The notes below the pieces were generated by a model that saw only the letters and a list, made by a program, of their open reading frames with translations, had not been told where the DNA came from and did no database searches. A stretch of 64,000 bases of DNA from Verrucomicrobiia bacterium (GTDB taxonomy: Bacteria; Verrucomicrobiota; Verrucomicrobiia; Opitutales; Cerasicoccaceae): NCBI GenBank assembly GCA_030432235.1, contig JAUIHT010000003.1:186001-250000 (forward strand). Direction: 5' to 3'. Positions 48,253 through 51,635 of this stretch are shown here, one piece after another; the first letter of the stretch is position 1, and the number at the start of each line of letters is the position of its first letter. Both the position numbers and the translations under genes were made by a program.

Positions 48253-49680
48253 ATGGGCAAGAATCTATTCGAGAAAGTCTGGGAGGACCACGCCATCCGC
48301 ACCCTCCCCAACGGGCAAACGCAGCTCTTGATCGGGACGCACCTCATCCACGAGGTGACCAGCCCGCAAGCCTTCGGCATGCTGCGCGACCTCGGCCTGA
48401 GCGTGCGTTATCCGCAGCGGACTTTCGCGACGGTGGACCACATCGTGCCCACCAACGAAATCCACGAGCCCTACAGCGACCCGCTGGCTCAGGCCATGAT
48501 CGAGGAACTGCGCAAGAACACCGCGGAGCACGACATCACCTTTTTCGACACCAATACCGGCAAGCAGGGCATCGTCCACATCGTCGGTCCCGAGCAGGGC
48601 ATCACCCAGCCCGGCACCACCATCGCCTGCGGGGACAGCCATACGGCCACGCACGGGGCCTTCGGCGCCATCGCCTTCGGCATCGGCACCACCCAGGTGC
48701 GCGACGTCCTGGCCACGCAGTCCATGGCCCTGAACAAGCTCAAGGTGCGCCGCATCAACGTCGAGGGCGAGCTCGGGCCGGGCGTCTACGCCAAGGACGT
48801 CATCCTGCACATCATCCGCAAGCTGGGCGTGAACGGCGGCATCGGCTTCGCCTACGAGTATGGCGGCAGCGTCTTCGACAACTTCACCATGGAGGAGCGC
48901 ATGACCGTCTGCAATATGTCCATCGAGGGCGGGGCGCGCTGCGGCTACGTCAATCCCGACGAGACCACTTTTGAGTACCTGAAGGGCCGCCCCTACTCAC
49001 CCACCGGCAAAGCCTGGGACGAGGCCGTGGCACGCTGGACGGCTTACGCCAGCGACCCGGATTGCGCCTACGACGACGTGGTCACCTACCAGGCCGAGGA
49101 CATCAAGCCGACCGTCACCTGGGGCATCACGCCCGGCCAGGGCATTTTCGTGGACGAGTTCATCCCCGCCCCCTCCGACGGCAAGACCCAGAGCGAGTCC
49201 GCCCTGATCGAGGAAGCCCTGGAGCACATGAAGTTCGAAGCCCACACGCCTATCATGGGCAAGAAGATCGACGTCGCCTTCCTCGGCTCCTGCACCAACG
49301 GCCGCCTCAGCGACTTGGAGGAAGTGGCACAGTACATCCAGGGCCACAAGGTCGCCGAGGGCGTCAAGGCCATCGTCGTGCCCGGCTCCCAAATCGTCGC
49401 GCAAATCGCACAGGAGAAGGGCCTGGACAAGATTTACACCGAAGCCGGCTTCGAGTGGCGCGGCGCAGGCTGCTCCATGTGCCTGGCCATGAATCCCGAC
49501 AAGCTCGTCGGCGATCAGCTCTGCGCCAGCTCTTCGAATCGCAACTTCAAGGGCCGCCAAGGCTCCATTACCGGGCGCACGCTGCTGATGAGCCCGCTGA
49601 TGGTCGCCGCCGCCGCCATTACCGGCGAAGTGGCCGACGCGCGTGAGGTCTTCGGCGTGGCCGAGGCCGCCGTGGCTTAA
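48253..49680 (+). CDS. leuC: 3-isopropylmalate dehydratase large subunit LeuC
   Basis: 475 residues; isomerises 2- to 3-isopropylmalate in leucine synthesis with LeuD. [4Fe-4S] ligands: [13 protein letters not shown] (about 346-358) and [13 protein letters not shown] (about 407-419); also [20 protein letters not shown]. Start ATG at 48253 begins [13 protein letters not shown], the usual start. A GCCCG-CGAA-CGGGC hairpin at 48222-48235 ends 17 bases before the ATG. LeuD is 3.7 kb away; the last 19 coding bases and two more recur at 50880-50900, showing that DNA was inserted at the 3' end of the gene. Confidence 0.97.
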
Positions 49681-49682
49681 AA
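49662..49682. repeat. 21-base direct repeat, left copy (leuC 3' end)
   Basis: Identical to 50880-50900: begins CGAGGCC and ends GTGGCTTAAAA, covering the last six codons and stop of leuC. The copies stand 1218 bases apart and bracket the exported-protein gene and the structured region, as expected for a target duplication or for site-specific integration at the end of leuC. Confidence 0.8.
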
Positions 49683-49701
49683 AAGCAGAAAGCGCGATTA
49701 A

Positions 49702-50415
49702 CTATTGCTTGGGATATAGAGGGTAATCGGTCGCGAGTGTAGGATAAGAGCCGACTGCAAGTTCCTCTCCATCGCTGTAGCCGTCTCCGTCGGTATCCCA
49801 TTTTTCAGGATTTGTGCTAACAACCATCTCTTGAAAATTGGTAATACCGTCGCCATCTAAATCACCGAGTAGACCGGTTTTGCTGTTACGTTCGTCATGA
49901 ACTAGGGGGTTGAATGCGTCGTATTGCATCTCCCAGCCATCCGACAGCAAATCCATATCTGTGTCGTAAAAGAGCGGGTCGGTGCCGAGTCTTATTTCCT
50001 CGCTATTGGTCAGCCCATCGTTGTCAAAGTCCGCCAATGAAGGATTTTCGGCGATGATTTTAGAAGTAACCAGACGAAAAAAGATAGCCTGATGGTCAGC
50101 TTCAGGTGCGTGATCAAAATAGTATTCAAGCCTGTCCCCCGTTCCCGTGGCTATGGCATCCGGCACGTAGGACCAATTTTGCAGGTCCGTTGAATACTCC
50201 AGAAAAAAGGTCAGACCTTCCTTACTATTCCACTCAGCCTTATAGCCAGAGCCAGACTGAGGAAGGAGTCGGAGTTGATAGTTTTCGACAGGCTTCGGTT
50301 TAAAAATTGCCCCCGATTGCTCGTAATCATCCATAGGCATGTCCTCATCGAATGCCGCTGATAAGCGGGAAAGGATGGCACCTGCTAGAACCGTGGCGGC
50401 AATGAGACGTTTCAC
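49702..50415 (-). CDS. Exported protein with Ca-binding type 3-like Asp repeats
   Basis: 237 residues from the GTG at 50415, which opens a good signal peptide (VKRLIAATVLAGAILSRLSA); the frame is open to another GTG at 50481 but that would put 22 residues before it. The central part (YKAEWNSKEGLTFFLEYSTDLQNW) resembles a beta-sandwich seen in verrucomicrobial exported proteins; the C-terminal 100 residues hold DFDNDGLTNSEEIRLGTDP, DTDMDLLSDGWEMQYD, DLDGDGITNFQEM and DTDGDGYSDGEEL, calcium-binding thrombospondin-3-like repeats. It ends without PEP-CTERM. It lies inside the segment bounded by the 21-base repeats. Confidence 0.75.
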   Translation of the reverse strand: MKRLIAATVLAGAILSRLSAAFDEDMPMDDYEQSGAIFKPKPVENYQLRLLPQSGSGYKAEWNSKEGLTFFLEYSTDLQNWSYVPDAIATGTGDRLEYYFDHAPEADHQAIFFRLVTSKIIAENPSLADFDNDGLTNSEEIRLGTDPLFYDTDMDLLSDGWEMQYDAFNPLVHDERNSKTGLLGDLDGDGITNFQEMVVSTNPEKWDTDGDGYSDGEELAVGSYPTLATDYPLYPKQ

Positions 50416-50579
50416 AAAAGCTGAGTGTGTACGAAGAACAGCGTAGCGTCCAGACCTATCAAACAGTGGCGAAATAGCCACGGCAGCCCATGTGTGATGG
50501 GAAAGAATAGCTTAAAAAAATTTGCCCAACTGACCACACCGACCCAACCAGGCCAACAGAGCCAACGTAACTCTTGGCG

Positions 50580-50880
50580 GGGTGTGGTAGAATGCCGGGC
50601 ATGAATGAAAAACACAGTATGCGGCCACCCTAGCCGGGCGGCCTATTCACCGAAACGCCCGCGCTGCCCGAAGCAGGAACGCCGCGGTGTTTGTCTACCT
50701 GTGCCGCCCATTGAGCGCGGTGCAGGGCCGGAGAAGGGGAGCATCCCCTCTCCGCTTAAACCGATGAACTAGCCAGCGGCGATTTCCGAATAGGGTGGCG
50801 GAGGCTGAACGGCTGTTCTTTGACATAGGCGCACTTCAGAAGTACGCGCCAGCCCTAGGAAACGCGCCCTCAATGGCAGC
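50580..50880 (+). ncRNA. Candidate structured RNA (boundaries and strand approximate)
   Basis: No open frame with coding character, GC-rich, and several strong stems in one 300-base span: a long-range helix GCCACCCTA (50624-50632) with TAGGGTGGC (50791-50799); GGGCG with CGCCC inside it (about 50637-50659); a hairpin CGGAG-A-AGGGGA / TCCCCT-CTCCG with GCA loop (50729-50754, one bulged A); GAAC-GGCT-GTTC (about 50807-50818); and GGCGC-ACTT / AAGT-AC-GCGCC (50828-50850). Single-stranded junctions contain A-rich motifs such as CACCGAAA and GGAAACG. The organisation, a closed multi-branched domain, resembles large bacterial RNAs; a solitary HEARO/omega-RNA-like element is one idea, which I cannot verify. 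No IscB-like gene is next to it. Confidence 0.45.
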
Positions 50881-50900
50881 GAGGCCGCCGTGGCTTAAAA
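50880..50900. repeat. 21-base direct repeat, right copy
   Basis: Perfect copy of the leuC 3' end (49662-49682), including the TAA, without any gene attached on its left. Marks the right boundary of the 1218-base segment. Confidence 0.8.
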
Positions 50901-50951
50901 CTTGCTTCGTAGGGAATAATACTTAGGGTACAAAGCTCTCTATATTCTCCC

Positions 50952-51635
50952 ATGAAGACGATTCTCTCCCTCCTCACACCCGCACTCGCCCTGCTGGGCG
51001 CCACTAGCGCACAGGCACTCAATGTCGCTTATTGGAATATGGACGCCTCCACGGTAATAGGCAAAGGATCCGCCAATAAGGGAAGCCAGGCCGGTTCGAT
51101 CGGCTCGACTTTCTACGAAATCAACGCAGGGTTTTTCAGCGAAATCGAGGCGGACGTCACCGGCACGGAAGATAACATCCTGCTGCCAGGGCCCATTATC
51201 AACCGCGCCGTCGGCTTTTTCCGCGCCGGTTCTGCTTACTACAACGGCGGCTTCATGATGGAGAATTTCGACTTCACCGGCCTGAGCGACGTCACCGTCT
51301 CCTTCGCCTATCAAAGCCTGAACGAGCTGACCTGGGACACCAACCTGGAAGTGGACTACCGCATCAATGACGGCTCCTGGGTGGATTTCGCCGAAGCGGA
51401 AGAATGGGCCTCTGGCTGGCAGGTTGCCGAGATCGGTTTCGGTAGCCTGCTGGATAATGCATCCGACGTGGATTTCCGCATCTATACGGTCAACTGGGCC
51501 AGCGTCGTCGGCTATCTGGATTTGGACAACATCCAGGTCAATGCCGTGCCCGAGCCGGAAACCTACGGGCTGATTCTCGGAGCCGGCCTGCTCGGGCTGG
51601 TAATCGTCCGCCGTCGCTTCAAGAAGGCGGCGTAA
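50952..51635 (+). CDS. PEP-CTERM exported protein
   Basis: 227 residues with signal peptide (MKTILSLLTPALALLGATSA, cleavage after QA). Beta-rich mature domain (VAYWNMDAS start). C-terminus VPEPETYGLILGAGLLGLVI followed by VRRRFKKAA, a canonical PEP-CTERM sorting signal. Function unknown; no homology to an enzyme seen. Its 3' end overlaps the convergent DUF1223 gene by 17 bases. Confidence 0.88.
   Translation: MKTILSLLTPALALLGATSAQALNVAYWNMDASTVIGKGSANKGSQAGSIGSTFYEINAGFFSEIEADVTGTEDNILLPGPIINRAVGFFRAGSAYYNGGFMMENFDFTGLSDVTVSFAYQSLNELTWDTNLEVDYRINDGSWVDFAEAEEWASGWQVAEIGFGSLLDNASDVDFRIYTVNWASVVGYLDLDNIQVNAVPEPETYGLILGAGLLGLVIVRRRFKKAA

Follow-up and report, generated by a model that had tools for sequence, protein, structure and literature searches.

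To our knowledge, the ribosome-arrest ORFs described so far are leaders of the genes behind them. At TnaC, the leader of the tryptophanase operon, the ribosome stalls on reaching the stop codon of a short ORF with a terminal proline, and boxA is involved (PMC3902921); at toiL, the sensory uORF of E. coli topAI-yjhQ, ribosome occupancy of a short ORF is thought to set RNA structure (PMC12121999). Few C-terminal sequences stall termination in E. coli as strongly as Pro-Pro, and bacterial proteins are depleted of the Pro-Pro-stop ending (PMC7246954, citing Hayes 2002). Regulation by Nus factors is known beyond rRNA (PMC5725501), and the known boxA/Nus sites, such as those of rRNA leaders and suhB, precede a structural gene or rRNA.

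The RNA genes described here are a previously undescribed, stand-alone, folded, multi-copy family that resembles each of these systems in part. TnaC acts in cis to tnaAB, senses tryptophan via a conserved peptide of 24–36 residues and is present as one leader per operon, whereas in the RNA family only Pro-Pro-stop is conserved, the genes stand alone and there are 15 in a genome. Likewise, toiL governs a downstream toxin-antitoxin operon in cis, but the family has no such operon. The rrn boxA of sister genomes is similar to the family's motif TGTTCTTTGACA, which, however, forms the end of the RNA instead of preceding a gene. The preliminary description of the locus had brought HEARO/omega-RNA (RF02033) to mind, an element that is likewise solitary, structured and non-coding and measures about 300 nt. 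This likeness is not supported: every copy carries a promoter of its own together with a mini-ORF that is probably leaderless, and no RF02033 match was present in 49600-51000 (to E 10) or in the 16 other copy loci (to E 1). The ORFs adjoining the RNA copies do not suggest an IscB-type nuclease. Sibling small RNA families consist of several divergent copies with a common single-stranded motif. Multiple stand-alone copies with a common short motif are found here too, but these RNAs are much more highly structured and their mini-ORFs always end in the same way. We found no counterpart, in Rfam 15 or by text search, to stand-alone RNA genes whose ORF is invariant only in its arrest-prone Pro-Pro-stop.

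Copies and distribution of the RNA family

The window, a stretch of 64,000 nucleotides (C42:186001-250000), belongs to a 5.7-Mb genome of 42 contigs (G000), and its RNA copy (about 50512-50825, plus strand) is one of 15 dispersed in that genome. Blastn with the flagged stretch detected relatives at other places in G000; seven of these stretches were used to build a covariance model, which gave 13 copies, and a sequence model of the upstream region added two (C7:62337 and C7:177057), both of which the structure model also scores (E 8e-10 and 1e-8). Mean identity among the G000 copies is 51%. Applied to G001, a genome of 5.8 Mb in one contig from another genus within the same taxonomic family, the covariance model made from all 15 (R3) identified 15 loci; it identified none in 34 other relatives. 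A pattern of the 3' half that is independent of the model (CTTAAA ... GGACGG ... GTTCTTTGA) also found 15 loci in G001 and, outside these two genomes, a single chance match among 373 genomes of the order; a pattern of the ORF region, applied to 384 genomes of the class, found G000, G001 and one chance match only. The G001 copies are about 330 nt long and about 90% identical among themselves (87-96% for the intact ones), against 47% identity with those of G000. The family was seen in only two of the genera searched, and its absence from more distant genera is weak evidence because the first model (R1) missed G001 and the 15-copy model found it.

Two features of the G001 copies were noted in passing: a single strand of the chromosome carries 13 of the 15 (C1; two-sided p ~0.007), and in one copy (L121) a repeat splits the apical hairpin. 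Matches to an 18-mer, CGGACGGCTGTTCTTTGA, in GTDB genome contigs (n=9) were all rejected as chance by sequence, some of them scoring with the model only because the model includes the motif. Viral contigs gave no match and then two chance matches. No Rfam family reached the gathering threshold for the RNA itself in the window or for the RNA copies in 16 loci, and 49600-51000 gave chance matches only, up to E 10. No described family matching the RNA was found in papers, although an earlier description is not fully excludable because most subscription papers lay outside the search. We regard the identity of the RNA as a new family as almost certain.

Fold, reading frame and 3' end

The features of the window copy are collected in Table 1. 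The stretch 50560-50905 (plus strand) folds better than shuffled sequences (z -2.6; one of 100 shuffles as good), and the conserved unit alone folds at z -4.4. In a model-fitted alignment of 13 copies (A2), 90.7% of pair cells are standard, and pairing falls to 34-54% when partners are slid by 1-3 columns as a control. To allow for the bias of such an alignment toward the structure, we examined these helices again on a MAFFT alignment made without structure (A3), where 84.4% are paired (slid control 36-54%). Double changes were present in 19 of 28 pairs in A2, in 17 of 28 in A3 and in 28 of 40 in an alignment over both genomes, where pairing in the slid controls was likewise far lower, counts that do not represent independent events because paralogues within one genome are related. 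Support is best for P3, P4 and P5, fair for P2 and weak for P1. On A3, P3 is 80-85% paired and P2 is weaker (67%), while P4 is paired in 95.5% of cells over both genomes and carries a conserved CCCAnnG motif in its apical loop. A conserved CTTAAA (50755-50760) precedes the 3' strand of P3. P1, which joins the ORF end to the strand before the boxA-like motif, has the least support (48-86% paired over both genomes).

Table 1. Features of the RNA copy, in positions of the window
Feature	Position	Strand	Basis or observation
Promoter module common to the RNA copies, up to ATG	50512-50604	+	Sequence model R2, E 2e-19
Tandem 9-bp repeats, unit roughly nnnnCCAAC	50524-50567	+	Lag-9 self-similarity, upstream of promoter
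-10 box TAGAAT with TG extension	50588-50593	+	Alignment of 14 upstream regions
Mini-ORF MNEKHSMRPP-stop	50601-50633	+	Constant part is Pro-Pro-stop
Helix P2	50655-50658 with 50687-50690	+	A2: 90% of cells paired, double changes in 3 of 4 pairs
Helix P3	50691-50696 with 50762-50767	+	A2: 92% paired, double changes in 5 of 6 pairs
Hairpin P4	50698-50709 with 50715-50726	+	A2: double changes in 8 of 11 pairs
Small hairpin P5, base	50727-50728 with 50754-50755	+	A2: double changes in 2 of 2 pairs; loop variable
boxA-like 3' end TGTTCTTTGACA, end of conserved unit	50814-50825	+	Kept in nearly all copies, both genomes

The preliminary description had proposed a structured RNA, possibly of a new class, and had called for homologues beyond the locus and for covariation among them. 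This proposal is strongly supported by the 14 dispersed copies elsewhere in G000, the 15 in the other genus, the covarying helices and the lack of any Rfam match in the window or the copies. Two of the findings that it had named as refuting, a lack of homologues outside the locus and a lack of covariation, are thereby contradicted. Its details fared less well. The 9-mers GCCACCCTA (50624-50632) and TAGGGTGGC (50791-50799), described as a long-range helix, are indeed complementary, but the pairing is not conserved (48.6% of cells paired in homologues, no excess over shuffles). The conserved unit does not include the hairpin at 50828-50850, for which no consistent counterpart follows the boxA-like motif in other copies. 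The start had been put at 50560, whereas the unit begins upstream, with promoter and repeats from about 50512; and what had been taken as devoid of a coding frame contains the mini-ORF, which appears to be under selection.

The sequence model R2, made from 14 upstream regions, finds 16 places in G000 beside the window: 14 RNA copies, a GNAT gene and one further place. The GNAT acetyltransferase-like gene (L097, G000:C37:343763-343844) shares its repeat promoter and its ATGATTGAAAAACG start with some RNA copies and looks as though it had captured both. The lag-9 self-similarity of the repeats is strong in both genomes (z 11.8 in the G000 copies, z 25 in those of G001), and the repeat sequence differs by genus (nnnnCCAAC versus nnnATCAAn), running up to the promoter in both; the repeats are a probable protein-binding array. 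The 7 nt between the -10 box and the ATG are GC-rich (mean GC 0.75 and 0.86 in the two genomes). Promoters whose activity is coupled to growth rate typically have such a GC-rich stretch behind the -10 box.

In each copy an ATG lies a few nucleotides past the -10 box and is followed by an open frame to Pro-Pro-stop, an ending present in 30 of 30 copies (15 in each genome). The -10 box and the ATG lie too close together to accommodate a Shine-Dalgarno site, so the message is probably leaderless. Beside the peptide of the window, G000 has MITKSCMRPP, MKTKHPARPP, MIRKQQLRPP and others, and G001 has MNAHRIYKPP and variants; the ORFs are 9, 10, 12, 19, 20, 28, 40 or 64 codons long, all in frame. Over the 30 copies the two proline codons vary synonymously (CCG, CCA, CCT, CCC), the stop is TAG in 24, TAA in five and TGA in one, and the preceding residue may be R, K, S, H, C, V or I. 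Changes in length keep the frame, including an insertion of 54 codons (162 bases) and a shortened version, and the three G001 copies with a repeat inside the ORF all stay open (64, 64 and 40 codons), ending SPP-stop. The repeat in these copies (L117, L118 and L124) is palindromic (CGCGCAGAGGC ... GCGTCTCTGCGCG) and in frame. We read this pattern of variation as selection for translation up to Pro-Pro-stop and not for the peptide.

At the other end of the unit, GTTCTTT(GA), resembling the rRNA boxA, closes all copies but one, which has a degenerate 3' end. In most copies of both genera the boundary reads CGG, 2-5 nt, then GTTCTTTGA(C/A)A. No 16S rRNA is detectable in the assembly of the window, but in two genomes of the same taxonomic family in which it is detectable (G005 and G007) CGTTCTTTGAAAA lies about 150 nt before it, and the GTTCTTTGA core is common to this site and the RNA 3' end; on this basis the 3' motif resembles the local rrn boxA. 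No intrinsic terminator was found at the 3' end of the RNA.

Gene context

Neighbours were called with a home-made ORF scorer and ARAGORN for 28 copies, the two detected last (L099 and L102) being left out. The downstream neighbour is convergent in 20 of the 28 (9 of 13 in G000, one of them a tRNA, and 11 of 15 in G001), in some copies only 6-35 nt away, so that the regulated same-strand gene directly downstream that characterizes TnaC and toiL is not what is found here. In some copies the gene that follows, 55-355 nt away, is on the same strand, with genes reading as dnaN and ilvN-ilvC among the examples, and the copy in the window, beside a Ca-binding-type ORF and leuC, has a same-strand PEP-CTERM gene 124 nt downstream. 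No function common to the neighbours of the mapped copies was seen. Because most copies face convergent genes and their neighbours have no common function, the RNAs are stand-alone genes.

The preliminary description had the element end at the right copy of a 21-base repeat. This repeat, CGAGGCCGCCGTGGCTTAAAA, is exact (49662-49682 and 50880-50900), corresponds to the 3' end of leuC and flanks a 1.2-kb block holding the Ca-binding-type ORF and the RNA gene; the unit itself ends at the boxA-like motif and not at the repeat. As the repeat was not seen at other RNA copies, it was rejected as an element boundary, and the pair looks like the scar of an insertion or duplication. Two other RNA families were encountered near copies. 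A match resembling Large MISL RNA (RF03079; L042 1-898, minus strand; G000:C39 ~194813-195710; 178 bits, E 7e-51), which is below the gathering score because it is cut by the end of the locus, is on the same strand as one RNA copy and about 600 nt downstream of it. Acido-Lenti-1 RNA gave near-threshold matches in L043 (354-398, 36.9 bits) and L099 (2505-2549, 27.7 bits; gathering 37).

Possible function and alternative explanations

The invariant Pro-Pro-stop suggests that the RNA senses or holds ribosomes, and we propose a mechanism for this, to us the most parsimonious reading, that is tentative, its chance of being correct as a whole falling somewhat short of even. Each RNA would be transcribed from its own promoter behind the 9-bp repeat array, with a probable transcript start at or beside the AUG, and a ribosome would read the short ORF, always to Pro-Pro-stop. 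Because chains with a Pro-Pro end are released slowly, the ribosome would pause there, its leading edge on the sequence with which the folded body begins, holding the RNA in one fold and freeing it once termination proceeds; the RNA would in this way report how well termination works. The readout may take place through binding of the NusB-S10 complex by the boxA-like 3' end, in trans or on the nascent transcript. TnaC and toiL indicate that such steps exist in nature, though both in cis. Classical antitermination does not fit, because the boxA-like motif stands at the 3' end and not before an operon, and no common downstream gene or target of the RNA was found. Furthermore, P1 is the pairing that a paused ribosome would block, and its position as the least supported helix counts against the mechanism, as does the detection of the family in only two of the genera searched. 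That the RNAs are dedicated stand-alone switches, present in many copies and each capturing one ribosome at Pro-Pro-stop, which link slow termination to transcription or rRNA synthesis via the boxA-like 3' end, is possible but on the doubtful side.

Several other explanations bear on the same observations. The RNAs could be trans-acting sibling small RNAs in which the common 3' UGUUCUUUGACA serves as a base-pairing seed or a NusB-S10 decoy while the mini-ORF does no more than protect the 5' end or feed ribosome rescue. The stand-alone genes, their many divergent copies with a common 3' motif and the GC-rich stretch after the -10 box would agree with this, but the invariance of Pro-Pro-stop would then be unneeded, and no target set is apparent because, with both strands counted, the full 12-mer has only a few occurrences in the genome beyond the RNAs; we consider this explanation unlikely. 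A cis-acting leader of the TnaC or toiL type, in which a pause at the mini-ORF controls a downstream gene, is improbable given the convergent gene or tRNA behind 20 of 28 copies and the lack of common downstream functions, even though the layout of short ORF, structure and boxA resembles that of known leaders and some copies, that of the window included, do have a same-strand gene downstream.

The remaining explanations would shift attention from regulation to the spread of the copies or to the peptide. Dispersal of the copies, the 87-96% identity of intact G001 copies, the repeats inserted in some of them and the location of 13 of 15 on one strand are what would be expected of a non-autonomous mobile or repetitive element in which conservation stems from spread and not from cellular function. 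Set against this, the G000 copies average 51% identity yet retain fold, promoter and Pro-Pro-stop, the frame stays open to Pro-Pro-stop despite inserted repeats, and no terminal repeats or enzyme were identified, so that we give this explanation little credence. If instead the genes encoded small peptides, with the remainder of the RNA as mRNA, the constraint that keeps the ORF open in all copies would be accounted for, but the peptide is not conserved beyond Pro-Pro, its length ranges from 9 to 64 residues and covarying helices lie in the non-coding part, all of which makes it very improbable that the peptide is the product.

Were the proposed mechanism of a ribosome pause at Pro-Pro-stop gating fold and readout to prove true, these genes would connect translation termination directly, through RNA, to the Nus/boxA machinery. 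Were it to prove false, they would still constitute a well-supported new RNA family with an unusual constraint on its ORF.
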